Assembly (NCBI GenBank): GCA_030840515.1
Contig: JAVEEJ010000190.1
Coordinates: 1-32,962, forward strand
From: Frankiaceae bacterium
Lineage (GTDB): Bacteria; Actinomycetota; Actinomycetes; JAVEEJ01
Direction of reading: 5' to 3'
Length of the DNA: 32,962 bases
This document shows, piece after piece, positions 3,170-28,086 of this stretch. Numbering within the stretch: position 1 is the first letter of the stretch; each line of letters starts with the position of its first letter. The notes beneath the pieces were generated by a model. It worked only from the letters and a program-made list of their open reading frames with translations. It searched no databases and was not told the DNA's origin. The translations under genes and the position numbers were made by a program.

Positions 3170-4435
3170 GTGATCGACCTCCGCACCCTCCGCGACGACC
3201 CGGAGCGGGTCCGCGCCTCGCAGCGGCACCGTGGGGCCGACCCCGCAGCCGTGGATACCCTGCTCGCCGCTGACGCCGCACGCCGGGCCGCGATCTCCGT
3301 GGCCGACGAGCTGCGCGCGGAGTCGAACACCGCAAGCAAGGGCATCCAGGCGGCGGCCCCGGACGAGCGCGCGGCGCTGATCGTGCGGGCCAAGCAGCTC
3401 AAGGACGCCGTGCGGGATGCGGAGCTCGAGCAGGGCCACGCAGAGGACGCGCTGCGCGCGGCGCACCTGGCCATCGCCAACGTGGTCGAGGACGGCGTCC
3501 CTCCTGGGGGTGAGGACGACTACGTCCTGCTCGAGGAGGTCGGAGCCCCCACGGTCGGCCCGGACGCGAAGGACCACCTCGAGCTGGGGGAGCGGCTCGG
3601 TGCCATCGACGTCGAGCGCGGGGCCAAGGTCTCCGGGTCGCGCTTCTACTTCCTCACCGGCGTCGGGGCGCTGCTCGAGCTCGCCCTGGTGAACGCGGCC
3701 ATGGCGCAGGCCGTGTCGGCGGGCTTCACGCCGATGATCGTCCCGGCCCTGGTGCGACCCGAGGCGATGGAGGGCACCGGGTTTCTCGGCGCGCACGCCG
3801 CGGAGGTCTACCGGCTCGAGGCCGACGACCTCTACCTGGTCGGCACCTCCGAGGTCCCGCTCGCGGCCTATCACTCGGGCGAGGTGCTCGACCTGTCCGG
3901 CGGGCCGCTGCGCTACGCCGGCTTCTCGTCCTGCTTCCGGCGCGAGGCCGGTTCCTACGGCAAGGACACGCGGGGGATCATCCGCGTGCACCAGTTCGAC
4001 AAGGTGGAGATGTTCGTGTTCACCACGGTCGAGCAGGCCTACGACGAGCACCGTCGACTGCTGGCGTGGGAGAAGGAGTTCCTCGACGCCCTCGAGCTGC
4101 CCTACCGGGTGATCGACGTGGCGGCCGGCGACCTGGGGTCGAGCGCGGCGCGCAAGTTCGACTGCGAGGCCTGGCTGCCCTCCCAGCAGCGGTGGCTGGA
4201 GCTGACCTCCACGTCCAACTGCACCGACTTCCAGGCACGCAGGCTGGGGGTGCGGGTCCGCGGTGAGGACGGCTCGCTCACGCCCGCGGCAACCCTCAAC
4301 GGCACCCTGTGCGCAGTGCCGCGCACGATCGTGGCGCTCCTGGAGAACCACCAGCAGCCCGACGGCGCCGTACGCGTGCCCGCACTTCTCCAGCCCTACC
4401 TCGGCGGCCGCGAGCTCCTCGAACCGGTGAGCTGA
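3170..4435 (+). CDS. serS: Seryl-tRNA synthetase
   Basis: GTG start; [24 protein letters not shown]...[17 protein letters not shown]...[28 protein letters not shown]...[15 protein letters not shown]...[21 protein letters not shown]. Confidence 0.97.
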
Positions 4436-5274: not shown

Positions 5275-6624
5275 GTGCCGGTGATGAAACGCGGGTCGCT
5301 GTGGCGGCATCAGGACTTCCTCAAGCTGTGGACCGGCGAGACGATCAGCGTCTTCGGCTCGTCGATCAGCCAGCTCGCGATCCCGCTGGTCGCCATCTCG
5401 ACGCTGCATGCCACGACGTTCCAGGTCGGCGCGCTCAACGCGGTGGAGACCGCGCCGTTCCTGCTGGTCGCGTTGTGGGCCGGCGTGTACGTCGACCGGC
5501 GCAAGCGGCGCGGGGTCCTGATCGGCGCCGACATCGGTCGTGCCCTCGTACTCGGCTCGATCCCGGTCGTGTTCTGGCTCGGGGGGATGGACGACAACAG
5601 TCGGGCGTCCGGACTCGCGCAGCTCTACGCCGTCGCACTGGTGGCGGGCATCTTGACGGTGTTCTTCGACGTCGCCTACCAGTCCTACCTGCCCTCGCTC
5701 GTGGACCGCGAGCAGCTGGCCGAGGGCAACTCCAAGCTGACGACGACTGAGGCCGCCGCGCAGCTCGCCGGCCCGGGTGCCGCTGGCCTGCTCATCAACG
5801 CGTTGAAGGCGCCGGTGGCGATCGTGGTCGACGCCGCCTCGTTCCTGGTGTCGGCGTTCGCGGTCGGCCTGATCCGGAAGCCCGAGCCCGAGGTGGAGGT
5901 CCCCGAGGGCGGCCACAACTCGGTGCGCAAGGACATCTCGGAGGGCCTGCGTTACGTCACCCGCCACCCGATGCTGAAGAAGATCGCCGGCTGCACGGGC
6001 ACGTCGAACCTCGGCAGCGCCATGACCAATGCAGTCCTCGTGGTCTTCCTGGTCCGGGAGCTCCACTACTCGCCTTCACTCCTCGGCCTGGTGTTCTCGC
6101 TGGGATCGATCGGCTTCCTCGTCGGATCCGTCATCACTGCGCGGGTCACCAACTGGCTCGGCCTCGGTCGCACCATCGTGCTGTCGTCCGGGCTCGCGGG
6201 CTTCGCGACGTTGGTCGTGCCCTTCGTCCCCGCGGACAACAAGGCGCTCTCGGCCCCGCTGGTCGTCGCGTCCAGCATCCTGGTCGGGGTCGGCGTGCCG
6301 ATCTACAACATCGGCCAGGTCTCGCTGCGCCAGGCGATCACGCCCACCCGGCTGCAGGGCCGGATGAACGCCTCGATGCGCTTCATCGTGTGGGGAACGA
6401 TGCCACTTGGCGGGCTCATCGGCGGCGCGCTCGGCGGTCCGCTGGGGCTGCGCAACACGATGCTCGTCGGCGCGATCCTGAACGCCTCATGCTTCCTGTG
6501 GGTGCTGTTCTCCCCGGTGCGCACGCTGAAGGAGATCCCGGAGGTGGAGGAGCCGACCGGCACCGCCGCCGTCGATGTCGCCGAGGCGGAGCACCCCCCG
6601 ACCGGCGCCGCGCCGATGCTCTGA
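5275..6624 (+). CDS. MFS transporter (MefA/drug-efflux type)
   Basis: SLWRHQDFLKLWTGETISVFGSSISQLAIPLVAISTLHATTFQVG... multi-TM, GxxxDRRKRR loop motif. Confidence 0.9.
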   Translation: MPVMKRGSLWRHQDFLKLWTGETISVFGSSISQLAIPLVAISTLHATTFQVGALNAVETAPFLLVALWAGVYVDRRKRRGVLIGADIGRALVLGSIPVVFWLGGMDDNSRASGLAQLYAVALVAGILTVFFDVAYQSYLPSLVDREQLAEGNSKLTTTEAAAQLAGPGAAGLLINALKAPVAIVVDAASFLVSAFAVGLIRKPEPEVEVPEGGHNSVRKDISEGLRYVTRHPMLKKIAGCTGTSNLGSAMTNAVLVVFLVRELHYSPSLLGLVFSLGSIGFLVGSVITARVTNWLGLGRTIVLSSGLAGFATLVVPFVPADNKALSAPLVVASSILVGVGVPIYNIGQVSLRQAITPTRLQGRMNASMRFIVWGTMPLGGLIGGALGGPLGLRNTMLVGAILNASCFLWVLFSPVRTLKEIPEVEEPTGTAAVDVAEAEHPPTGAAPML

Positions 6625-6693
6625 GCAGGAGCTCGACCCTCTGCGTCGAAACACGCGGCACGGGGGCGGATCCGCCCCGTTGGGGGTCGCAAG

Positions 6694-8091
6694 ATGCGCA
6701 AAGCCGTCGCCGTCGTCGCCGTACTCGCCGCCTGCGCCGTGTCAGCGGGCGCGGCCTCCGCCCGCACCACGCCCGTCCCGCGGTTCACCGGCCCGATCCT
6801 GCTGGCGAACACCGACGGGGTCACCGAGCCCCGCATGGCAGTGGATCGCAGGACCGACATCCGCTACGCGGTGGCCAACCTCAAGAGCGGTCCGGCGGCC
6901 GTGTTCGCCTCCACCGACGGCGGCCGGACATTCGGCAAGACGCAAGGGACGATCCCTGGGCAGCAGGCGACGACCATCGACCTGGACATCGTCACCTTGT
7001 CGACCGGTCGCGTCATCGCGAACGAGCTGGACGAAGCGGGCCTGACGTTCCCCACCGGCTACAGCGACGACCACGGCAAGACCTGGCAGGCGTCGTCGGG
7101 CCCCATCGTCGACGTGGACCGGCAGTGGCTCGCGGTCGGGCCGCACGACGAGGTCTACCTGGTGTTCCACAACTTCGTCTCGGGGCTGACTGCGCACGAG
7201 GTCATGGTGCAGAGCTCGACCGACGGCGGGAAGACCTTCGGCGCCCCGGTGCCCGTGACACTGCCCGGGGAGCAGGCCTTCGCCGACCTGTCCTGCGGCG
7301 ACTCGACCGGCCCGTCGGGGATGGCGGTCGACCAGCGCAGCGGTCGCATCTACGTCTCGTTCACCACGCGCACCTCAGCTGTCGGAGGCGGTTGCGGCAA
7401 GAGCGCCACCGGTGAGCCCGGGTTCAACGTCGTGCCCTCCTCGCACATCTGGGTGGCCTCCTCCCCCAACGGCCAGGCCGGCACCTGGAAGACCTCGCTC
7501 GCTGTCGACGCGGCCGAGAGCGGCCTCATCGTCGGCCTCCAGTACTCGCCCGTGCGAGTGGACACGGCGGGAGGCGTGTACGTCGTCTACACGCAGGGCC
7601 TGACCAAGGGTAGCTACGTGTCCGACCTGCACTACGCCTACCTGGCCCCGGGCGCCTCGGCCTGGCGCCAGCACAAGGTCACCGGAACCTCCGGCGGGAT
7701 CCTCTTCGGCCACATCGAGGTCGGCAAGCCGGGGCGGATCGGGCTGGCCTACCTGTACTCCCGCGTCGTCGACGGCGCGACCTTGTGGTTCCCCGCCTTC
7801 TCGCAGACCCTCGACGGCCTCGCTACGCGTCCGCACTTCACGCAGGTCAAGCTGGCCGGCTTCCCGAGTCACAAGGGCAGCGCCGCCCAGATGTCGGGCT
7901 CGTGCGCGACCGGTCCCGGCGCGGGTATCCAGCAGGGGCTGACCTGCGGACGCCAGCTGGACAACTTCGGCACCGCGCTCGATCGCGCGGGCCGGGTGTC
8001 GGTGATCTGGCCCGCCCCGTCGGCCGCCCTCGGTGAGGGGCAGGTCGGGACCTACATCGCCACCCAGCTGTCCGGACCCGGTCTGCTCTAG
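6694..8091 (+). CDS. Secreted sialidase-fold / BNR-repeat protein
   Basis: Signal peptide MRKAVAVVAVLAACAVSAGAASA; Asp-box motifs STDGGRTFG, SDDHGKTWQ, STDGGKTFG. Confidence 0.75.
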   Translation: MRKAVAVVAVLAACAVSAGAASARTTPVPRFTGPILLANTDGVTEPRMAVDRRTDIRYAVANLKSGPAAVFASTDGGRTFGKTQGTIPGQQATTIDLDIVTLSTGRVIANELDEAGLTFPTGYSDDHGKTWQASSGPIVDVDRQWLAVGPHDEVYLVFHNFVSGLTAHEVMVQSSTDGGKTFGAPVPVTLPGEQAFADLSCGDSTGPSGMAVDQRSGRIYVSFTTRTSAVGGGCGKSATGEPGFNVVPSSHIWVASSPNGQAGTWKTSLAVDAAESGLIVGLQYSPVRVDTAGGVYVVYTQGLTKGSYVSDLHYAYLAPGASAWRQHKVTGTSGGILFGHIEVGKPGRIGLAYLYSRVVDGATLWFPAFSQTLDGLATRPHFTQVKLAGFPSHKGSAAQMSGSCATGPGAGIQQGLTCGRQLDNFGTALDRAGRVSVIWPAPSAALGEGQVGTYIATQLSGPGLL

Positions 8092-8116
8092 CGGGCCACC
8101 TAGAGGTAGGGCCCGC
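8091..8116. terminator. Convergent bidirectional terminator hairpin
   Basis: GCGGGCCACC-TAGA-GGT(AG)GGCCCGC spans the facing stop codons of the sialidase-like gene (+) and bpa (-). Confidence 0.55.
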
Positions 8117-8651
8117 TGCCCTCGCGGGGACCCTCTCCGGCCCGCCCGGGCGGGCCACCGGGTGCGCCCATCGGCAGCGCGCGCCGCATCTGCTCGAGCT
8201 GAGCCTGCGCCGCCATCTGCTGGGCGAACAGCGCGGTCTGGATCCCGTGGAACAGCCCCTCGAGCCAGCCGACGAGCTGCGCCTGGGCGATGCGCAGCTC
8301 GGCATCGCTCGGGACGGTCTGCTCGCCGAACGGCAGCGCGAGCCGCTCCAGCTCGGCGACCAGCTCGGGCGCCAGGCCCTGCTCGAGCTCCTTGATCGAG
8401 CTGCGGTGGATCTCACGCAGCCGCACCCGCGACGCGTCGTCCAGGGGAGCGGCGCGGACCTCGTCCAGCAGCTGCTTGATCATCGAGCCGATGCGCATCA
8501 CCTTCGCCGGCTGCTCGACGAGGTCGGTCACCGACGGGGTGCCATCCCCCTCGCCGACCTCCTCGACCGCCATGCCGTCCTCGCTGACAACGACGACACG
8601 GTGCTGCTCGTCCGCGCCGGTGGGCTGCGCCTGCTCAGTCATGGGGGTCAT
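8100..8651 (-). CDS. bpa: Bacterial proteasome activator Bpa (DUF2587)
   Basis: PAKVMRIGSMIKQLLDEVRAAPLDDASRVRLREIHRSSIKELEQGLAPELVAELERLALPF...LVGWLEGLFHGIQTALFAQQMAAQAQLEQMR...C-terminus GPYL. Confidence 0.92.
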   Translation of the reverse strand: MTPMTEQAQPTGADEQHRVVVVSEDGMAVEEVGEGDGTPSVTDLVEQPAKVMRIGSMIKQLLDEVRAAPLDDASRVRLREIHRSSIKELEQGLAPELVAELERLALPFGEQTVPSDAELRIAQAQLVGWLEGLFHGIQTALFAQQMAAQAQLEQMRRALPMGAPGGPPGRAGEGPREGSGPYL

Positions 8652-8702
8652 CCTGCGCTAAACGGTTGGCGCTCACACCCGCCGGGCGGCAGTGTGTGTG
8701 AG

Positions 8703-9650
8703 GTGAACGCATCGACACTGACCCTGCGCGCTCCGCGTGGCGAGGACCTCCACACCGTCTACGAGGTCATCGTCGCCGACGACCGCAACGAGCTCGGCAA
8801 GCCGGACATCGACGAGTCCGACGTCTCCGAGTGGTGGGCCATGCCGCACTTCGACAAGTCGCGCGACGCCTGGATCCTCGAGCGAGAGGGCACCGCCGTC
8901 GGCTACGGACAGACCCACGACCGCAACAAGACAGGTCGGTTCGACACTGACGTCTGGATCAGCGACGAGGAGGACGAGGACGGGTACGGCGCACTGCTCG
9001 ACGCGGCACTGCAACGAGCCCGCGAGCTCCTCGCCGAGACCTCCGCCGACAACAGCGGCGGGCTCAAGCGCCAAGCCTGCACCTGGTCGGTCATGGGTCG
9101 CGAACGGCGTGCCGCATGGCTCGAAGCGCGCGGCTTCAGCAAGGTGCGCCGCTTCTACCGGATGTCCATCACCGTCATCGACGTGGACCCGCCCGAGCTG
9201 CCTGACTGGCTGACGCTGACGCCGCTGGGCAGCAGCGACGAGGACGCGCGCCGGGCCTACCAGGCGATGATGTCGACCGCGTTCATCGGCCACTGGGGGC
9301 ACGTGCCGATCGACTACGACACCTGGCTCGCCCGGGTGACCGCCAGCCCCAACCTCGACTGGGACACGGTCTGGCTGGCCCGGGTCGACGGCGAGCCCGC
9401 CGCGGGCCTCAAGATGCGGATCTACGAGGACGTCGCCTTCATCGACACCGTCGGGACGTTGAAGGAGTTCCGCGGTCGTGGCGTCGCCGGACTGCTGCTG
9501 CGCACGGCCTTCGCCGAAGCGCTGCGGCGCGGCCAGCCCTACGTGGAGCTGGGCGTCGACACCGAGAACGACACCGGTGCGGTGGCGGTCTACGAGAAGG
9601 CCGGGATGTCAGTGGCGTTCGCCCACGACGAGTGGAGCCGTGCGCTCTGA
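8703..9650 (+). CDS. GNAT family N-acetyltransferase (tandem-domain type)
   Basis: GTG start 8703; LTLRAPRGEDLHTVYEV... and C-terminal FIDTVGTLKEFRGRGVAGLLLRTAFAEALRRGQPYVELGVDTENDTGAVAVYEKAGM. Confidence 0.88.
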   Translation: MNASTLTLRAPRGEDLHTVYEVIVADDRNELGKPDIDESDVSEWWAMPHFDKSRDAWILEREGTAVGYGQTHDRNKTGRFDTDVWISDEEDEDGYGALLDAALQRARELLAETSADNSGGLKRQACTWSVMGRERRAAWLEARGFSKVRRFYRMSITVIDVDPPELPDWLTLTPLGSSDEDARRAYQAMMSTAFIGHWGHVPIDYDTWLARVTASPNLDWDTVWLARVDGEPAAGLKMRIYEDVAFIDTVGTLKEFRGRGVAGLLLRTAFAEALRRGQPYVELGVDTENDTGAVAVYEKAGMSVAFAHDEWSRAL

Positions 9651-13750: not shown

Positions 13751-14044
13751 TCAGGAGTCGCTGGCCGCGGTGCCGAGTACGACGTTCCAGGGCCGGACCC
13801 GCCAGGTGTGGGCCAGCCCGTTCACCACGTAGGGGTCAGCCTCCGCGAAGCGGGTGATGACCTCGGGCTCCTCGACGTCCCAGACCAGCAGCGCGCGGTC
13901 CATGGGCTCGGCGAGCGCGCCCGCCAGCACCAGCTCGCCGCGCTCAGCCGCTGCCTGCGCCAGCGCGAGGTGCTCGGCCCGGAACTCCCCGCGCCGCTCC
14001 GCGTGATCAGCCACCAAGTCGTACTCGAGCAGCCACCAGCTCAC
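13751..14044 (-). CDS. YciI family protein
   Basis: MSWWLLEYDLVADHAERRGEFRAEHLALAQAAAERGELVLAGALAEPMDRALLVWDVEEPEVITRFAEADPYVVNGLAHTWRVRPWNVV. Confidence 0.9.
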   Translation of the reverse strand: MSWWLLEYDLVADHAERRGEFRAEHLALAQAAAERGELVLAGALAEPMDRALLVWDVEEPEVITRFAEADPYVVNGLAHTWRVRPWNVVLGTAASDS

Positions 14045-15615
14045 CGTCGCCTCCGCTTCGCCGTACCCAGTACCGAGCGAGTGATCTCGCGGCCCGCCGC
14101 ACTGGCGACCGACCGCGCGAACGACCTGAACACCGACGACGCGAAGATGCCGGCGACCGCGCCCGCTGCGCCGGCCGCGGCGGTCTCGCCGCGATGGGAC
14201 TTCCCCGTCGAGGGGGCCGTGGTGGGAGGGGTCGCAGCCTGGCCGGCGCTGGCGTTCACCGCCGCCTCGCGTGCCGCCAGCTTCTCCCGGGCCGACTCGT
14301 CATCGAGCCGTTGCGCATAGCGCTGGGCCGTCGGAGACCCGGCGACGAGGGCGGTCTGCTGCGCCGGGTCGAGCTGTGCCATCAGCGACGCCGGCGCCCG
14401 CATCCGGGTCCAGGCGACGGGTGTGGGCACCCCGCGCTCCGACAGCACGGTCACCACCGCTTCGCCGATACCGAGCTGGGTCAGGAGCTCCTCGAGGTCG
14501 TAGCCCGACTTGGGAAACGTGGAGACGGTCGCCTTCAACGCCTTCGCGTCATCCGGGGTGAACGCCCGCAGCGCGTGCTGCACCCGGTTGCCGAGCTGGG
14601 CCAGCACGTCGGCCGGGACGTCCTTGGGCGTCTGCGTCACGAAGAACACGCCGACGCCCTTCGAGCGGATGAGCCGGACGGTCTGCTCGATCGAGGCGAG
14701 GAAGTCCTTGGAGGCGTCGTCGAAGAGCAGGTGCGCCTCATCGAAGAAGAAGACGAGCTTGGGCTTGTCGACGTCGCCGACCTCGGGCAGCTCGTGGAAG
14801 AGGTCCGCCAGCAGCCACATGAGGAAGGTCGAGAAGACCCGCGGCTGGTCTTGGACTCCGGGCAGCTCGAGGATCGTGACGAGCCCACGGCCGTCGGGCG
14901 CCAGGCGCATGAGATCAGCGGTGTCGAACTCCGGCTCGCCGAAGAAGTCTCCGGCACCCGCGTCGGTGAAGCCGATCAGCTCGCGCAGCAGCACCTGGGC
15001 GGTCGCCTTCGACAGTCCGCCAAGCCCGTCGAGGTCGGCTTTGCCCTCGTCGGAGACCAGGTAGGTGATCACCGCCCGAAGGTCCTCGATGTCGTCCAGG
15101 TCGAGGCCTTGCGCGTCGGCGTAGTGGAACACCAGGTTCAGCGACGATGACTGCACGTCGTTGAGGTCGAGCACCTTCGACAGCAGCAGCGGACCGAACG
15201 AGGAGACGGTCGCGCGCACGGCAGCGCCTGTCCCGTGACCACCCAACGCGAGGAACTCGACAGGGAAGGCGGCCGGTGCCCACTGCTGGCCGATGTCCGC
15301 CGTACGCGTCGTGATCCGCTCGTTCGGCACCCCCGGTGTGGCCATGCCCGAGACGTCACCCTTGATGTCGGTGAGGAACACCGGCACGCCAGCGGCCGAT
15401 AGCTGCTCGGCCATGAGCTGCAGGGTGCGGGTCTTGCCGGTGCCGGTTGCCCCGGCGACCAGACCGTGGCGGTTGCACATCGCAAGCGGGATCCGCACCC
15501 CCGCGTCCGGGAGCGCCTTGGCGTCCTCGACCAGAGCGCCCAACTCGATCGACGGCCCGCTGAAGCGGTAGGCCTCGGCGATCGTGTCGGCGTCAACTGC
15601 GGCTCGACCTGTCAT
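14041..15615 (-). CDS. HerA-like helicase/ATPase (DUF853)
   Basis: ATG 15615 (MTGRAAVDADTIAEAYRF); NRHGLVAGATGTGKTRTLQLMAEQLSAAGVPVFLTDIKGDVSGMA...FFFDEAHLLFDDASKDFLASIEQTVRLIRSKGVGVFFVTQTPKDVPADVLAQLGNRVQHALRAFTPDD; ATGA overlap with yciI-like gene. Confidence 0.93.
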   Translation of the reverse strand: MTGRAAVDADTIAEAYRFSGPSIELGALVEDAKALPDAGVRIPLAMCNRHGLVAGATGTGKTRTLQLMAEQLSAAGVPVFLTDIKGDVSGMATPGVPNERITTRTADIGQQWAPAAFPVEFLALGGHGTGAAVRATVSSFGPLLLSKVLDLNDVQSSSLNLVFHYADAQGLDLDDIEDLRAVITYLVSDEGKADLDGLGGLSKATAQVLLRELIGFTDAGAGDFFGEPEFDTADLMRLAPDGRGLVTILELPGVQDQPRVFSTFLMWLLADLFHELPEVGDVDKPKLVFFFDEAHLLFDDASKDFLASIEQTVRLIRSKGVGVFFVTQTPKDVPADVLAQLGNRVQHALRAFTPDDAKALKATVSTFPKSGYDLEELLTQLGIGEAVVTVLSERGVPTPVAWTRMRAPASLMAQLDPAQQTALVAGSPTAQRYAQRLDDESAREKLAAREAAVNASAGQAATPPTTAPSTGKSHRGETAAAGAAGAVAGIFASSVFRSFARSVASAAGREITRSVLGTAKRRRR

Positions 15616-15687
15616 AGGGCTCTCCTCGGGGTGTGTTTGTGACCCTATGAGGGTTCGGTTCGCCCCTGCCCGGGGACTGTGCCTGAC

Positions 15688-15882
15688 ATGAGTGGTTCTG
15701 GATCGATTCGCCGTGAGGTGCGGCGCCAGATCCGACGGCCGGGTGTCGCCATCGATGTGGTGGCTGATGTCAGCGCCGCTGTCGCCACGAACGGCGAGGC
15801 GGCGAGCTCGACGCAGTCCATCCAGATCAAGCAGGAGCACGGCGCATCCGTGGTCAGCCACACCGACGAGGAGGAGCAATGA
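15688..15882 (+). CDS. Small peptide P1, divergent first member of the peptide array (alternative GTG start 15679)
   Basis: MSGSGSIRREVRRQIRRPGVAIDVVADVSAAVATNGEAASSTQSIQIKQEHGASVVSHTDEEEQ; stop overlaps the ATG of the next ORF (ATGA) and encodes its SD (GAGGAGGAG). Confidence 0.65.
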   Translation: MSGSGSIRREVRRQIRRPGVAIDVVADVSAAVATNGEAASSTQSIQIKQEHGASVVSHTDEEEQ

Positions 15883-16085
15883 GCGAACGCGAGCCAGAAG
15901 GCCTGCCCCCCGAGGAGCTCGAGGCGCAGAACGGCGAGGAGCTGCCCGACCGCGAGCAGATGAGCCTCGTGAACGCGAACATCGCCATCCCGGTCAATGC
16001 GGCGGTCGCCGCGAACGTCCTGAGCGACGGGGCGATCGCCTACGCCGACGCAACGCAGGACACCCCCATCGACCAGAGCAACTAG
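15879..16085 (+). CDS. Small peptide P2, tandem paralogous putative precursor peptide
   Basis: MSEREPEGLPPEELEAQNGEELPDREQMSLVNANIAIPVNAAVAANVLSDGAIAYADATQDTPIDQSN; strong conservation with the next two ORFs. Confidence 0.85.
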   Translation: MSEREPEGLPPEELEAQNGEELPDREQMSLVNANIAIPVNAAVAANVLSDGAIAYADATQDTPIDQSN

Positions 16086-16094
16086 AGGAGCGAC

Positions 16095-16334
16095 ATGAGC
16101 GAGATGCAGCCTGAGCCCCCCACCAGCACCAGCGGCACCGAGGCCGAGGGCCTCACGCCGGAAGAGCTCGAGGCAGAGAACGGCGAGCAGCTGCCCGACC
16201 GCGAGCAGATGAGCCTCATCAACGCGAATCTCGCGGCACCGGTGAACGCGGCGGTCGCGGCGAACGTGCTGAGTGACAACTCGGTGGCCTACGCCAACGC
16301 CACACAGAACGTGGACATCGACCAGAGCAACTAG
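16095..16334 (+). CDS. Small peptide P3, tandem paralogous putative precursor peptide
   Basis: MSEMQPEPPTSTSGTEAEGLTPEELEAENGEQLPDREQMSLINANLAAPVNAAVAANVLSDNSVAYANATQNVDIDQSN; SD GAGGAG upstream. Confidence 0.87.
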   Translation: MSEMQPEPPTSTSGTEAEGLTPEELEAENGEQLPDREQMSLINANLAAPVNAAVAANVLSDNSVAYANATQNVDIDQSN

Positions 16335-16360
16335 CAGCAATCGACAGAACGGAGCACGGC

Positions 16361-16609
16361 ATGAGTGAGACCACACCCGAGACCGAGCCCACCGGCACCA
16401 GCGACCTCGGCCCGGAAGGCAGTGGCCTGACGGAGGAGGAGCTCGACCAGGAGACGGGCGAGCAGCTCCCCGACCGTGAGCAGATGTCGTTGGTCAACGC
16501 GAACGTCGCCGCCCCGATCAACGCCGCCGTTGCGCTCAATGCGCTCAGCGACAACTCGACGGCGTACGCGAACGCGGAGCAGACCGCTCACATCACGCAG
16601 GGCAACTAG
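16361..16609 (+). CDS. Small peptide P4, tandem paralogous putative precursor peptide
   Basis: MSETTPETEPTGTSDLGPEGSGLTEEELDQETGEQLPDREQMSLVNANVAAPINAAVALNALSDNSTAYANAEQTAHITQGN; SD GGAG upstream. Confidence 0.87.
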   Translation: MSETTPETEPTGTSDLGPEGSGLTEEELDQETGEQLPDREQMSLVNANVAAPINAAVALNALSDNSTAYANAEQTAHITQGN

Positions 16610-16628
16610 CAACAAGTCAGCGCGAAGG

Positions 16629-16655
16629 GAGGCCGGTCACGTCGTGGCCGGCCTT
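16629..16655 (+). terminator. Hairpin (possible partial terminator/attenuator) between peptide array and protease gene
   Basis: GAGGCCGGTCAC-GTC-GTGGCCGGCCTT: 12 pairs including 2 G-U, followed by CTCTC. Confidence 0.55.
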
Positions 16656-16705
16656 CTCTCGCCTGCACGCCCCACCGTCTGATACCGACCCATGAGAGCG
16701 AGCCG

Positions 16706-18466
16706 ATGACGCTGGCACCGGAGCGAACCCAGGACGCGAGTACGTCGGCTCCTGCGTCCCGGACTCGCGTGTGGGGCAGCGAGCGCCGGCACCCGGCGCC
16801 GCCACGGTCAACAGGCAGCGGCGGTAAGGCTGACAAAGGCGCGCCGGCCGACGACCGGCCCAAGCTCGCTGATGGCGTCGAGCTCGTCGGCGAGTACGAG
16901 GGTTCCGGCTACAAGGAGCCGCACTACCTCGCCAGGCGCGGCGCGACCGGCATCGTCCAGCTCAGTCACCTGCTGCATCTCGTGGCCGAGCAGTGTGACG
17001 GCCGCAGGTCCTACGCCGAGATCGCGGCCGCTGTGTCCGACGGCTACGGCAAGCCGGTCTCCGAGGACAACGTCCGCACCCTCGTCAACGACAAGCTCCG
17101 CGCGCTCGGCGTGGTGGCGTCGACCGATGGCCGCACCGCGACCATCGACGACTCAGACCCGCTCTTGGGTCTGAAGTTCAAGGTCACCCTGCTGGGACCG
17201 CGCGCGGTCAACCGCGTCGTCCGGCCGCTGACCCCGCTGTTCTGGGTCCCGGTGGTCGTCCTCATCGGACTCGGCCTCGCCGCTTTCGACGGCTGGCTGT
17301 TCTTCGGCCACGGACTGGCCCAGGGGCTGCGCAAGACGGTGCAGCACCCGATCGTATTCCTCGTCGTCGGTGCACTGGTGGTCGTCTCGGCGGCGATGCA
17401 CGAGCTCGGCCACGCCGGCGCACTGCGTGCAGGTGGAGGCAAGCCGGGCCGGATGGGGGCGGGGCTGTATCTCGCGTGGCCGGCGTTCTACACCGACGTC
17501 ACCGACGCGTACTCCCTGAACCGCCGAGGCAGGCTGCGGACCGACCTCGGTGGCGTGTACTTCAACGCGATCGCCGTACTCGGCTGCGCCGGTGTCTACG
17601 CGCTCACGCGCTTCGAGCCGCTGTTGCTCATCTGCTTCGTGCTCCAGATGCAGGTGCTGCAGCAGATGCTGCCGCTGCTGCGACTCGACGGCTACTACGT
17701 GCTGTCGGACCTGCTCGGCGTCCCCGACCTCTTCAAGCGCACCGGCCCGGTGCTCAAAGGACTGATCCCAGGACGCGAGCGTGACCCGCTCGTCAACGAG
17801 CTCACTCCGAAGGCGCGCCGGATCATCACGTGGTGGACGCTCGCGGTTGTCCCGTTGCTGCTGGCCAACCTGCTCTACATCGTGGTGAACGCGCCGCGCA
17901 TCCTCGCGACGGCCTGGGACTCAGCCGCCCACCAGATCGGCACCATCCAGGGCGACCACGGGGCCGCGCGCGCGGTGGCCGCGTTGCAGCTGCTGATCCT
18001 GCTCATCCCGATCACGGGGATCTGCATCACCCTGGTCCGGGTCTCGTCGCGCACCGGCCGTGCGGCCTGGTCGTGGTCGGCCGGCTCACCTGCGAAGCGA
18101 CTCACCACCGCCCTGGCGACGTTGGCGTTCCTGGGGCTGCTCGTCTTCGCGTGGTGGCCCGACGGCAGCTTCACGCCCTATCGCCCGGGTGACACCGGAA
18201 CCGTCGCCGCAGGCTTCCAGGACATCGGCCGGCCAGGGGTCGGCACCCCCGAGTTGCGGTCGCCGCGTGAGGCCCGCCAGCCGCTGCCGGCGCAGCCGGG
18301 GTCGACGGGCACCACGACGGACACGAGTACGACGCCGGGGGACAACCCGGCGCCAGAGCCCAGCGCCTCCGCCGGCACAGGCGCCCAGCCGGACCCGGTT
18401 GGCTCCGCCCAGCCGACCCCGAGCACCGAGCCGAGCACGGCACCCAGTGCGACGGCGACTCCCTGA
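16706..18466 (+). CDS. Membrane M50-type (site-2-protease-like) peptide metalloprotease with N-terminal PqqD/RRE-like region and Pro/Ser/Thr-rich C-terminal tail
   Basis: HELGHA (HExxH) in a TM segment; second motif LLRLDGYYVLSDLLGVPDLF; about six TM segments; N-terminal HYLARRGATGIVQLSHLLHLVAEQCDGRRSYAEIAAAVSDGYGKPVSEDNVRTLVNDKLRALGVV resembles PqqD-like winged helix. Confidence 0.85.
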   Translation: MTLAPERTQDASTSAPASRTRVWGSERRHPAPPRSTGSGGKADKGAPADDRPKLADGVELVGEYEGSGYKEPHYLARRGATGIVQLSHLLHLVAEQCDGRRSYAEIAAAVSDGYGKPVSEDNVRTLVNDKLRALGVVASTDGRTATIDDSDPLLGLKFKVTLLGPRAVNRVVRPLTPLFWVPVVVLIGLGLAAFDGWLFFGHGLAQGLRKTVQHPIVFLVVGALVVVSAAMHELGHAGALRAGGGKPGRMGAGLYLAWPAFYTDVTDAYSLNRRGRLRTDLGGVYFNAIAVLGCAGVYALTRFEPLLLICFVLQMQVLQQMLPLLRLDGYYVLSDLLGVPDLFKRTGPVLKGLIPGRERDPLVNELTPKARRIITWWTLAVVPLLLANLLYIVVNAPRILATAWDSAAHQIGTIQGDHGAARAVAALQLLILLIPITGICITLVRVSSRTGRAAWSWSAGSPAKRLTTALATLAFLGLLVFAWWPDGSFTPYRPGDTGTVAAGFQDIGRPGVGTPELRSPREARQPLPAQPGSTGTTTDTSTTPGDNPAPEPSASAGTGAQPDPVGSAQPTPSTEPSTAPSATATP

Positions 18467-18477
18467 GGAGGGTGACG

Positions 18478-19223
18478 TGAGCCGATTCAACCTCGGACGC
18501 CTGCGGATGCACGGCAGGCGTGGTGTCGTCATTGCGCTGGCTGCGGGACTCGCCGTCGTCGGCGTCGGTGCTTACGCGTCGGCGGAGCTCGCGAGTGGCG
18601 GCAGCGCCCCCGACTCCGCTGCGAGCCCGAGCAGCGGCGGCAACGGTGACGACAACGTCGCGGTGGCCGTCGGCAAGGACGGCAAATCGGTCTGGGCCAT
18701 CCGACTCAAGGTGGTCAAGGTGAGCGGTGACGTCGTGGACGCCGGGAACGCGGCCGTGGCTGCCGCCGGCTGCACCGACTGCGAGACCGTCGCGATCGCT
18801 ATCGAGGGCGTCCTGGTCACGGGCGACGTCGAGGTCGTGGAGCCGGTGAACATCGCGCTTGCTCTCAACACCGACTGCCAGGGCTGCCAGACCCTTGCAG
18901 CCGCCTACCAAACCGTCATCGGGACCAATGGCAACGTGCGCATCACAGGGGAGGGGCGCCGCGCCATCGCCGACCTGCGCAAGCAGCTCCACGACCTGCG
19001 CAAGAGCGGGCTGCCGCTCGAGCAGATCGCCGCGGAGGTGGACCGGATCGCCGCGGAGTTCACGCAGGTGCTGCGCACTCAGGTCGTTCCCGTCGGGCCG
19101 CGGGACAAGGCCTACGGCACGTCCACTGCGCAGCCGACGGCCTCGCCCACCGAGCAGCCCGCGCCTTCGGCCACAGCGACCGAGCCGGCGAGCCCAGAGC
19201 CCAGCGCGACGCCGACTCCCTAG
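18478..19223 (+). CDS. Membrane-anchored accessory protein with two CxxC repeats (no confident family name)
   Basis: N-terminal TM (GVVIALAAGLAVVGVGAYAS); repeats GNAAVAAAGCTDCETVAIAIEGVLVTGDV and VNIALALNTDCQGCQTLAAAYQTVIGTNGNV; helical QLHDLRKSGLPLEQIAAEVDRIAAEF; Pro/Ser/Thr tail ending PSATPTP. GTG start with SD GAGGAGGGTGAC. Confidence 0.8.
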
Positions 19224-19224
19224 C

Positions 19225-20346
19225 TCACCGCAAGAGTTCAGCCACCAGTGCGCTGACCAGCGCGCTGCGCCGTGCCAGCTCGGCGACGACGATGTGCTCC
19301 GAGCGGGCGTGCGCCCCGCCGCCGACCGCGCCGAGCCCGTCCAGCGTGGGCACGCCTATCCCGGCCGTGAAGTTCCCGTCGGATCCGCCCCCGACCGATA
19401 TCTCGGCCAGCGGGTCCAGGCCGAGGTCGGCGGCGAGCGCACAGGCCCTGTCGAAGAGCTCGACGGACATCCGGCGCTCCAGCGGCGGGCGGTTCGGGGC
19501 TCCCTCGAGTCGAAGCGCAGCGCCGGGGAGCACAGGCGTCAGCGCGTGCAGCGCCGCGTCGACGCGCCACTGCTCGGCGGCGGTCTCGGCCCGCACGTCG
19601 ACGCTGAGTCGGGCCTCGGCCGGAACGGTGTTCGTGGTGGTGCCCGCGTGAGCCACGGTGGGCGTGACGGTGGTGCCCACGTCGACGGCCTGCAGCTCGG
19701 CGATCGCCAGCGCCTGGTGGGCGAGCTCGAGGGTCGCGTTCACCCCCTTCTCCGGCTCGACGCCGGCGTGCGCCGCTAGCCCTCGCACGTGCAGCTCGTA
19801 CATCGACACGCCTTTGCGTTGGGTCTTCACAGCGCCGTCAGCCGCGCCCTCCAGCACCAGCGCCGCGCCCGCGGCCAGCGCGGTCTCCTCGATGAGCGCG
19901 CGGGAGCTCGGCGAACCCGTCTCCTCATCGGTCGTCAACAGCACAGCGACGCCGTCGAGCGAGTCGAGCACCGCGAGTGCGTGCAGCAGCTGGACCACGC
20001 CGGCCTTCATGTCGAAGGTGCCCGGGCCGCTCGCGATGCCGTCCTCCACGCGCAGCGGCCACTCAGCCGTCGTGCCGAGCGGCCACACCGTGTCGAGGTG
20101 CCCGATGAGCACGACGCGGTCCGCGGCACCGAAACGCCAGCGCAGATGGGTCCGCTCGTCCACCACGATGCGCTCGGGCGCCGCCCCGAGCAGTGCCTGG
20201 CCCAGCTCAGCCGCAGCGTCGGCGGCTCGCGTGGTGGCCGCCAGGTCGGCGGTAGGCGACTCGACATCGACCAGTGCGGCCAGGTGCTCCAGCATCACCT
20301 CGGTCCGCTCGGTCAGCGTGCGCAGGACGGAGGTCACCCGCGGCAT
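19225..20346 (-). CDS. M20 family metallopeptidase (glutamate carboxypeptidase/ArgE-DapE-like)
   Basis: VVLIGHLDTVWPLGTTAEWPLRVEDGIASGPGTFDMKAGVVQLLHAL...LLTTDEETGSPSSRALIEE...ISVGGGSDGNFTAGIGVPTLDGLGAVGGGAHARSEHI. Confidence 0.93.
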   Translation of the reverse strand: MPRVTSVLRTLTERTEVMLEHLAALVDVESPTADLAATTRAADAAAELGQALLGAAPERIVVDERTHLRWRFGAADRVVLIGHLDTVWPLGTTAEWPLRVEDGIASGPGTFDMKAGVVQLLHALAVLDSLDGVAVLLTTDEETGSPSSRALIEETALAAGAALVLEGAADGAVKTQRKGVSMYELHVRGLAAHAGVEPEKGVNATLELAHQALAIAELQAVDVGTTVTPTVAHAGTTTNTVPAEARLSVDVRAETAAEQWRVDAALHALTPVLPGAALRLEGAPNRPPLERRMSVELFDRACALAADLGLDPLAEISVGGGSDGNFTAGIGVPTLDGLGAVGGGAHARSEHIVVAELARRSALVSALVAELLR

Positions 20347-20358
20347 CCTGCCCGAGCC

Positions 20359-20706
20359 TCACGCGCGGCCGCGGCAGAGCTCGAGGATCGCCAGCGCCAG
20401 CCTGCCGCCCTCAGGCCCGAGCGCGTCGCGGTAGCGGCCCAGGACGACCCGTTCGCGGCCGTGCTGGATGCGGGGACCACCGCTCGCCACCCGCAGCTGC
20501 TGGATCTCCCGGGACGCGTCCCGCCGGCGGCGCATGAGGTCGACGAGCTCGTCGTCCAGGGCGTCCAGCTCGGCGCGCAGGCCGGCGAGCACCACGTCGA
20601 GTCCGTCGGTGGGGCTCGGACGCGGGATCGCGCTGTGAGTCGGGATGGTGGTGTGAGTCGGGATGGTGGCGTGAGTCGGGATGGTGGTGTGAGTTGGCAT
20701 CGGCAT
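20359..20706 (-). CDS. Chorismate mutase (AroQ-type) with N-terminal hexapeptide repeat extension
   Basis: DGLDVVLAGLRAELDALDDELVDLMRRRRDASREIQQLRVASGGPRIQHGRERVVLGRYRDALGPEGGRLALAILELCRGRA; SD AGGAGG upstream of ATG 20706. Confidence 0.85.
   Translation of the reverse strand: MPMPTHTTIPTHATIPTHTTIPTHSAIPRPSPTDGLDVVLAGLRAELDALDDELVDLMRRRRDASREIQQLRVASGGPRIQHGRERVVLGRYRDALGPEGGRLALAILELCRGRA
20635..20700 (-). repeat. 18-bp coding tandem repeat, about 4 copies, encoding (PTHTTI)n
   Basis: Plus strand GTGAGTCGGGATGGTGGT-type units; encodes PTHTTI PTHATI PTHTTI PTHSAI at the N-terminus of chorismate mutase. Confidence 0.85.
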
Positions 20707-26420: not shown

Positions 26421-27824
26421 TTACCGGTTGAGCTTGGGGCCTCCGACGAGGGTGCCGATGACGCCCTCGTTGTCGTGGATGCTCTCCACCTTCGTCTTCT
26501 CACAGTCGGCTTGGCACGCGTCGACGTACGCGCCCCACGGGGCACCGTCCGGCGCGATCTCCACATCGATGAAGTCGAGCACCCGACCGCAGCGGCCAGG
26601 GCCGCAGTCATCGACCTTGTAGGCGTGCTTCGGGTCGTTGATCGTGGCCGTGTAGAAGGTCGGGTTGGAGGTCAGCAGGCCGGTCGCCGAGGCGAGGTAG
26701 CCGTTCCAGAAGGCGCCCTTGCCAGGCGTCATCGTCGTTCCGTAGTAGGCGATCGCGATCTTGCCGGGGGCACCGACCGTGAGGGTGGCGAGGTTCGTCG
26801 CCTTGACCCCCGGGGCCGCCGCGTTGACCGGCTTGCTCCAGGACTTGCCGGCGTTGCGCGAGATGCTGATCATCGGCTTGCGCTCGGAGTTGTTCCACAG
26901 GTAGTAGAGGTTGTTCTGCTTGTCGATCGCGACGCTCGGGTCACCGCCCTTGACGGGGTCGGGCGAGACGTGCGAGATCGTCCAGCTCGCGCCTTCGTCC
27001 TTGCTGATGGCGAGCGTCGGCCTGTTGCTGCAGCCTGCGTAGGGGATGTAGATCCAGCCTCGGCTGTCGGTGACGCCGTGGCCGTTGAGCCCCGAGCACT
27101 CCGGGTTGTCCGCGCCGACGGTCGGGATCCAGGTGATGCCGCCGTCGAGCGACTTCGTGCAGTCGGTGTAGGCCAGCTTGTTGAAGCAGTAGTAGACGAC
27201 CTTCGAGTACAACGGGGTCAGGGTGCTGGTGACCGGCTTGCCGGTGAAGACCGTCTGGTGGTCGTTGACCGGCTCGCCGCAGGCGATCGGGTTGGTGATC
27301 CAGAGCGCGCCGTTGTTGTCGCTGTAAGAGATCTCGTTGCAGCCCAGGTTGAGGTCGATGTTGTAGATCCGGTCGAAGTCACCGGCGTGGTCGACGTAGA
27401 GGTAGGGGTCCTGCGAGATCACGTGGGTGCTGGCACCGGTGTTCGGGTCACCGGGCGAGACGTTCTGCCAGGTCTTTCCCTTGTCCTTCGTGATGAAGAT
27501 CGCGCGGCCACCGGGGGCGACCGTCTGCAGCGCCTCGGTGGAGCCGGCGCAGGAGGTCACGCAGCCGGAGCTGATGGTCGCGACGACGTACCCGTTGCGC
27601 GTGATGCCCAGCGTGGGTTCCCCCGCACCGTGGTGCAGGCGGAACTCCTTGGGGGTGGGCAGGCCGTGCGCCGCGATCTTCTTGCCGTCCGCGTGGTGGG
27701 CGACCGCGGTGCGGCCGGCAGCGGTTGCGCTGCCTGCCGCGCTCAGCGCGAGCGCGCTGCCGGCCACGAGGGCCCCCACTGCGAGGAGGCGGAACGAACG
27801 AGCATTGCGGCGCGACGTGCGCAT
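26421..27824 (-). CDS. Secreted sialidase-like / exo-alpha-sialidase-fold protein
   Basis: ATG 27824, signal peptide MRTSRRNARSFRLLAVGALVAGSALALSAAGSATA; ITKDKGKTW, KSLDGGITW, ISKDEGASW, ISRNAGKSW Asp-box-like repeats. Confidence 0.8.
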   Translation of the reverse strand: MRTSRRNARSFRLLAVGALVAGSALALSAAGSATAAGRTAVAHHADGKKIAAHGLPTPKEFRLHHGAGEPTLGITRNGYVVATISSGCVTSCAGSTEALQTVAPGGRAIFITKDKGKTWQNVSPGDPNTGASTHVISQDPYLYVDHAGDFDRIYNIDLNLGCNEISYSDNNGALWITNPIACGEPVNDHQTVFTGKPVTSTLTPLYSKVVYYCFNKLAYTDCTKSLDGGITWIPTVGADNPECSGLNGHGVTDSRGWIYIPYAGCSNRPTLAISKDEGASWTISHVSPDPVKGGDPSVAIDKQNNLYYLWNNSERKPMISISRNAGKSWSKPVNAAAPGVKATNLATLTVGAPGKIAIAYYGTTMTPGKGAFWNGYLASATGLLTSNPTFYTATINDPKHAYKVDDCGPGRCGRVLDFIDVEIAPDGAPWGAYVDACQADCEKTKVESIHDNEGVIGTLVGGPKLNR

Positions 27825-27941
27825 GGGGCACTCCAGATCTGGGCGCGCTCGTGGCGCGCTCACTGAGGGGGGCGGGTGGCCTTGCCGGAGTCCTTCGCCA
27901 CCGAGCGCCTGATCCCTCCTCGCTACGCTCGGACCGCTCCT

Positions 27942-28030
27942 GGAGGGTTCGCGTAGTGGCCGAGCGCAGGCGCCTTGAAAGCGCCCAGGCGGTTCATCCC
28001 GTCTCGTGGGTTCAAATCCCACACCCTCCG
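27942..28030 (+). tRNA. tRNA-Ser (anticodon TGA)
   Basis: GGAGGGT...ACCCTCC acceptor stem; anticodon loop CTTGAAA; long variable arm; T-arm GTGGGTTCAAATCCCAC. Confidence 0.93.
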
Positions 28031-28086
28031 CCGGTCGCACGTCTCAACCCCTAGCCTGCCCGCAGGTGCGCGAGGTGGGAGCCGGG

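Follow-up and report, generated by a model that had tools for sequence, protein, structure and literature searches.

A 32,962-nucleotide contig of a Frankiaceae bacterium (JAVEEJ010000190.1, assembly GCA_030840515.1; "the window" denotes this whole stretch) carries a compact unit of six same-strand genes at positions 15679-19223 of the forward strand. These encode a small basic peptide (P1), three leader-bearing peptides (P2, P3, and P4), an M50 membrane metalloprotease with an N-terminal RRE-like region (RRE-M50), and a protein with paired CxxC motifs (the CxxC protein). The peptides, the protease, and the CxxC protein very probably form one functional system. At about even odds (roughly 0.5), this is a maturation-and-display system, in which unmodified hairpin peptides are released by the RRE-protease and assemble outside the cell on the hairpin stack of the CxxC protein. 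More tentatively, the system may amount to an undescribed extracellular fibre or coat spread across the whole phylum Actinobacteria, with one-hairpin subunits polymerising on a CxxC nucleator that is either secreted or fused to the protease. The genes and the elements within and between them are as follows:

15679-15882 (+): P1, a basic, leaderless accessory peptide of 67 residues; GTG start, with an in-frame ATG at 15688
15879-16085 (+): P2, hairpin precursor peptide of the alpha class; overlaps P1 by 4 bp
16095-16334 (+): P3, hairpin precursor peptide of the beta class
16361-16609 (+): P4, hairpin precursor peptide of the gamma class; core P-I-N-A-A-V-A-L-N
16622-16662 (+): predicted intercistronic RNA hairpin (14-bp stem plus 4 bp) separating P4 from the protease gene
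16706-18466 (+): RRE-M50, intramembrane metalloprotease with seven transmembrane segments and an N-terminal RRE-like region; NF041824 match, E=2e-29
16934-17110 (+): residues 77-135 of the protease, an RRE/PqqD-like region within the span of the daptide protease model
17399-17413 (+): HELGH zinc-binding motif of the protease (HExxH, residues 232-236)
18477-19223 (+): CxxC protein, with a signal-like N-terminus, a hairpin-stack domain, two helices, and a Ser/Thr/Pro-rich tail; GTG start
18651-18926 (+): three tandem beta-hairpins of the CxxC protein, residues 59-150; AlphaFold2 confidence (predicted local distance difference test, pLDDT) mostly >90

A unit that recurs across the phylum

The initial annotation had described six compact same-strand open reading frames (ORFs) between a divergent HerA-like gene and a convergent M20 peptidase gene, and all of its coordinates are reproduced. 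From P1 to the CxxC gene, successive gaps are -4, 9, 26, 96, and 10 bp. Upstream lies the HerA_C gene (14041-15615; Pfam E=1e-184), and downstream the M20 peptidase gene (19225-20346), separated from the CxxC gene by a single base pair. Since neither family recurs among the compared neighbourhoods, these flanking genes are not part of the system. The six ORFs, on the other hand, are more than a chance arrangement, because counterparts of P2-P4, of the M50 protein, and of the CxxC protein are found in dozens of unrelated loci. Scans for a sigma-70 promoter and a classical terminator found neither, and an Rfam search gave no match.

A scan of genome contigs returned at least 559 relatives from at least 599 pattern matches; the best 80 loci were kept, and 90 loci were examined altogether. 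The kept loci come from Frankiaceae, Acidimicrobiia, Thermoleophilia, Rubrobacteraceae, Nocardioides, Arthrobacter, Mycobacterium, Streptomyces, and Pseudonocardiales, as well as from a few metagenome-assembled genomes labelled Chloroflexi. The closest full-length M50 proteins, found in relatives of the same class, are 38-50% identical to that of the window. In the wider relatives, small peptides are encoded 5' of the M50 gene, and the CxxC domain is encoded 3' of it or fused to its product. ORFs with an LPx[RK]E-type leader lie upstream in about 70 of the 90 loci (the leader filter picked up 71, a few of which are chance matches), and a hidden Markov model (HMM) detects the CxxC domain in 81 of the 90. 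In 43 loci (L086 being a duplicate of L018) this domain forms the C-terminus of the protease itself, in one polypeptide. Nine loci lack it, four of which are cut by the contig end (L031, L036, L039, and L051). Among 199 genomes of the phylum, the protease is found in 18, the CxxC domain in 14, and both in 12 (p=3e-13). A loss of gene order in relatives, which would have refuted the earlier proposal, is not what the comparison returns: peptides, RRE-M50, and CxxC proteins recur together phylum-wide. The order itself varies, and in L028, L029, L058, and L069 the CxxC gene lies upstream on the opposite strand.

Clustering of the neighbours of 88 loci gives broad recurrence only for the peptides, the protease, and the CxxC proteins. 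Other recurrent neighbours are single-genus synteny or general genes, except for a lipoprotein gene that follows the CxxC gene in loci with type A peptides (defined below). By eye this lipoprotein is of the LppX/LprG type; it lies 3' of the CxxC gene in L015, L017, L032, L033, L035, L037, L038, and L042, and the window has none. No modification enzyme for ribosomally synthesised and post-translationally modified peptides (RiPPs) and no dedicated ABC transporter recurs in the 88 neighbourhoods. Oxidoreductase, aminotransferase, methyltransferase, and radical SAM epimerase genes are absent from the six-gene unit, and none of them recurs in these neighbourhoods either, in agreement with the initial annotation, which saw no recognised modification enzyme. 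A phage origin was considered and rejected, as the searches gave no phage match and only two Streptomyces plasmids. In the NCBI annotation of one neighbourhood, on a Streptomyces plasmid, every gene of the system is labelled hypothetical.

A hairpin motif common to peptides and CxxC protein

P2-P4 carry the sequence LPDREQMS and have Asn as their C-terminal residue. P2, for example, joins the leader EELPDREQMS to the core NANIAIPVNAAVAANVLSDGAIAYADATQDTPIDQSN, and the leader consensus of the peptides is ..EEL....GE.LPDRExMS. Relatives sort into several types. Type A peptides, to which those of the window belong, are small, with mostly three per locus. Type B is a single long precursor of 220-400 residues with two modules (Arthrobacter, Nocardioides, and Mycobacterium). 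Type C peptides are those of Streptomyces (LLPGREALG[RK]LKFSF...), usually two per locus, and type D peptides are Gly-rich and found in Pseudonocardiales and Saccharopolyspora. In these last taxa, a protease of this family accompanies leader peptides rich in Gly (GGNGG) in L094, L107, and L078, and CxxC proteins are lacking. Three classes of type A peptides, alpha, beta, and gamma, are kept across distant taxa, and by simple sequence criteria the window has one of each. The alpha clade unites 15 peptides from 15 loci (support 0.97), which is moderate rather than strong support, since random draws average 12.2 loci and reach no more than 15. A claim of four paralogous peptides had been made for the window, and it stands for P2-P4 only. 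Because its N-terminus is basic (RREVRRQIRR..VAIDVVADVSAAVATNGEAASSTQSIQIKQ) and it has no LPxRE leader, P1 is a distinct component and not their paralogue. P1-like ORFs are found 5' of the peptides in type A loci (L017, L029, L031, L038, and L045), and they adjoin peptide or M50 genes in L122, L123, and L124; in a split system the P1-like ORF lies beside the M50 gene. In L126, a peptide with an LPxRE leader (3714-3983) has NVCG...C spacing and looks chaplin-like by eye; chaplin kinship was dropped as there is no Pfam match, and the locus has no CxxC gene.

Set against hairpin 3 of the CxxC protein, the peptide core agrees with it at each position of the motif P-x-N-x-A-x-A-x-N-x-x-[S/C]-x-x-[S/C]-x-x-x-A-x-A-x-Q. 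This register was first spotted by eye and then found independently by hhalign of the two alignments. The peptides of P4's family align to the CxxC domain with a score of 30.4 (E=7e-5), while the best of 150 column shuffles scores 18.6 (0/150 reach 30.4) and the reversed alignment 16.8. For type B the score is 23.4, with a shuffle maximum of 22.4. In addition, the CxxC HMM matches a cysteine-free peptide of L123 (4e-5), and the peptide HMM matches the CxxC domain of L118 (3e-4). Motif and domain also go together from locus to locus when the motif is called by a score over seven key positions, with a threshold that shuffled cores pass in 2% of cases. Both are present in 59 loci and neither in seven, the motif without the domain in none where the flank is sufficient, and the domain with a degenerate motif in one Mycobacterium locus (Fisher 9e-9, uncorrected for relatedness). 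With the exception of that one locus, absence of the motif from the peptides goes with absence of the CxxC protein. The initial annotation had suggested a minimal, possibly unmodified peptide system, either proteolytically released or surface-assembled. This idea gains support, and of its alternatives surface assembly is now preferred, given that peptides and CxxC protein have one hairpin motif in common.

The same comparison bears on whether the product is a true RiPP, with modifying enzymes encoded elsewhere in the genome. The RRE-like region and the leader-core layout would suit such a product, and stand-alone modification enzymes are possible. However, no enzyme family recurs in the 88 neighbourhoods. 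The cores show no conservation at Cys, Thr, or aromatic residues, the usual kind of modified position, but keep a hairpin pattern of small residues, and this pattern is common to the CxxC protein, which is not a leader-bearing substrate. A true RiPP is thus improbable.

The CxxC protein of the window is predicted with high confidence to contain three tandem beta-hairpins. In the AlphaFold2 model, pLDDT is mostly >90 over residues 61-200, the strands pair as 59-65/71-83, 90-97/103-115, and 124-131/138-150, and two helices follow. The turn of hairpin 2 and that of hairpin 3 each hold a CxxC pair, and the alignment of 59 sequences has invariant columns at N91, A95, C99, C102, C134, C137, and Q145. 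The protein had been described as membrane-anchored, but its N-terminus reads as a Sec-type signal, most plainly in the orthologues of L015 and L017, so that it looks secreted. Neither it nor the peptides match any Pfam, NCBIfam, or PDB family, and profiles of the protease, the CxxC protein, and the peptides found nothing meaningful among PDB sequences. The best Foldseek match of the CxxC model, the amyloid FapC, is too weak for structural homology (E=0.018, probability 0.08, TM 0.09) and was rejected. The genome of the window has a second, orphan CxxC-domain gene (L116; G000:C122:5972-6613, -), which lies beside pilMNO-like and shikimate-pathway genes on a 7.9-kb contig without peptide or M50 genes.

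Paired CxxC turns could also mean metal handling, with the domain binding metal and the peptides acting as accessory subunits. Both pairs are indeed invariant in most members and sit in successive hairpin turns. But in the peptides Ser replaces Cys and no metal-ligand pattern is seen, the first Cys pair is more widely spaced in the Streptomyces members, no metal transporter or sensor recurs nearby, and the domain is probably extracellular, where Cys pairs commonly form disulphides. Metal handling is quite improbable.

The protease and a possible route to the cell surface

The protease had been called a membrane metalloprotease, and its sequence agrees: the HExxH and distal Asp motifs lie in transmembrane segments, and hydropathy gives seven hydrophobic segments. 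HExGH and RxDGY are invariant or nearly so in the protease and 10 relatives, and residues H232, E233, H236, and D328, invariant in the 10 relatives, correspond to the HExxH and distal Asp of site-2-type M50 proteases. The odd number of segments, taken from hydropathy only, would place the N-terminal RRE-like region inside the cell and the C-terminus, or a fused CxxC domain, outside. The NCBIfam daptide intramembrane metalloprotease model (NF041824) covers both the RRE and the protease regions, starting at profile position 22. Pfam gives no match at all, PqqD included; direct comparison of the N-terminal region with PqqD is weak (E=0.04), as is hhalign against single PqqD-like sequences (E=0.011). 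In L022 an M50 protein (6617-8902) is fused not to a CxxC domain but to a MinD/ParA-type ATPase, and a separate CxxC protein has three CxxC repeats.

The GC-rich RNA stem predicted between P4 and the protease gene has a local z of -4.3. At the matching place, a hairpin is found in 28 of 36 loci at z<=-2 and in 21 of 36 at z<=-3, compared to 9/60 and 3/60 for control gaps between other same-strand genes of the same loci. The 36 usable gaps are nearly all from types A, C, and D; most type B precursors lie no more than tens of bases from the protease gene. Most simply, such a hairpin reflects a need for much more peptide than protease, and it may be the means by which this excess is reached.

A route can be proposed from these parts. 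P2-P4 would be made in excess over the protease, aided by the RNA hairpin. The RRE-like region would then bind the peptide leader on the cytosolic side, by analogy to daptides, and the HExxH centre in the membrane would remove the leader and release the core outward, as proposed for EpeP. Once outside, each core of ~35 residues would fold as one beta-hairpin and probably stack on the CxxC protein. The latter would serve as base or nucleator, its CxxC pairs stabilising the turns through disulphide or metal. With three conserved peptide classes, assembly in the extracellular space would yield a heteromeric fibre or coat.

The strongest rival takes the same protease in another direction: the peptides would be diffusible antimicrobials or signals matured by the RRE-protease, and the CxxC protein a peptide-mimicking immunity protein or receptor. 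RRE-site-2 proteases are known in daptide and epipeptide maturation (PMC10036551, PMC10885120), each locus has several paralogous peptides, and mimicry would explain the common motif as well. Nevertheless, the cores differ from typical weapons in being neutral to acidic, Asn/Ala-rich, and slow-evolving across orders. Neither a transporter nor an immunity gene recurs, the long two-module precursors with their extended linkers look structural, and the intercistronic hairpin suggests high abundance. Diffusible peptides are therefore an unlikely explanation.

Several observations weigh against maturation and display. For type C, the motif match is not significant by hhalign alone, though the sequences fit the register. 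Related loci are not independent, so that the p-values overstate the case. AlphaFold2 modelled a long two-module precursor with low confidence (pLDDT 53), and Foldseek finds no significant structural neighbour for the CxxC model. Orphan CxxC genes exist in some genomes, that of the window included. Finally, hairpin assembly is not the only setting of the protease, since in some loci it accompanies Gly-rich peptides and a CxxC protein is missing.

RRE-protease fusions serve as beacons for new RiPPs, and here they lead to a large family with a structural-looking product and no modification enzymes. Should the display model hold, RiPP maturation would be tied to surface assembly, subunits would have a minimal, transporter-free means of delivery, and functions could be given to several hypothetical proteins in Streptomyces, Mycobacterium, Arthrobacter, Nocardioides, and Frankiaceae. 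Since genetics exists in several of these genera, the model can be tested soon.

Elsewhere in the window, four 18-bp tandem repeats (20623-20694) encode a THTTIP-type repeat at the N-terminus of a chorismate mutase. Two secreted-looking proteins with BNR repeats (sialidase-like propellers) are encoded at 6694-8091 and 26424-28040 (-), both slightly under the Pfam cut-offs.

Comparison with known systems

In the open literature, subscription journals being outside the coverage, there is no earlier description of the system, only daptide and RiPP reviews. To the extent that the protease architecture is known from daptides, the kind of system is already known; the combination of unmodified hairpin peptides with a hairpin-stack partner is absent from the searched families, structures, and open literature.

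Daptide loci encode an RRE fused to an intramembrane site-2 protease (MpaP) that is proposed to remove the leader, and daptide precursors have an invariant C-terminal Thr and an ELExMEAP leader (PMC10036551). The protease domain architecture, with its putative RRE, and the several small leader peptides per locus are the same here, and the NF041824 match is the best in NCBIfam. That the locus is a divergent daptide cluster is nonetheless scarcely credible, and as a claim of membership it is already refuted by the missing genes and the family cut-off. The protease scores 102.8 bits against a cut-off of 300, and those relatives tested score 81-100 bits. A maximum-likelihood tree gives the family a clade of its own (100/93), distinct from the daptide proteases and also from a further RRE-M50 group, though the tree carries a long-branch warning. 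The daptide oxidoreductase, aminotransferase, methyltransferase, and ABC genes are missing, the peptides have no C-terminal Thr and an LPxRE leader, and there is an extra CxxC hairpin protein. Moreover, one genome (G002) holds both a daptide locus above the cut-off and the RRE-M50/CxxC system. The further RRE-M50 group (L136-L147), from the same phylum, reaches 150-180 bits to the daptide model in open frames of 490-1008 residues.

Among other peptide systems, the membrane M50 protease EpeP/YydH is thought both to cleave and to export a ribosomal peptide with no transporter, and the pearlin proteases TglG and TmoG are membrane M50 enzymes that act on a carrier peptide (PMC10885120). A membrane M50 protease beside a ribosomal peptide is common to epipeptides and the present system. 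The initial annotation's comparison with YydH holds at the level of the M50 protease, but the protein is closer to daptide MpaP than to YydH/LiaK, its second NCBIfam match and a weak one (E=1e-10), and it is a member of neither family. Its RRE-like region is also fused to it, in contrast to epipeptide loci. Epipeptides require a radical SAM epimerase, and membership was rejected for lack of one in the unit or recurring around its relatives. Pearlin proteases differ in cutting a modified amino acid from the C-terminus, and no PEARL-type enzyme recurs beside the peptides here.

In curli, abundant hairpin subunits (CsgA) assemble on a nucleator partner with the same repeat (CsgB), and small polar residues alternate along the strands. 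The peptides and the CxxC protein have no Pfam match to curli, chaplin, or Fap families and no significant fold match, and maturation by an RRE-protease has no counterpart in curli, Fap, or chaplins. What the present system would have in common with CsgA/CsgB, FapC, and chaplins is the alternation of small polar residues and the proposed logic itself, that of abundant hairpin subunits and a partner carrying the same repeat.

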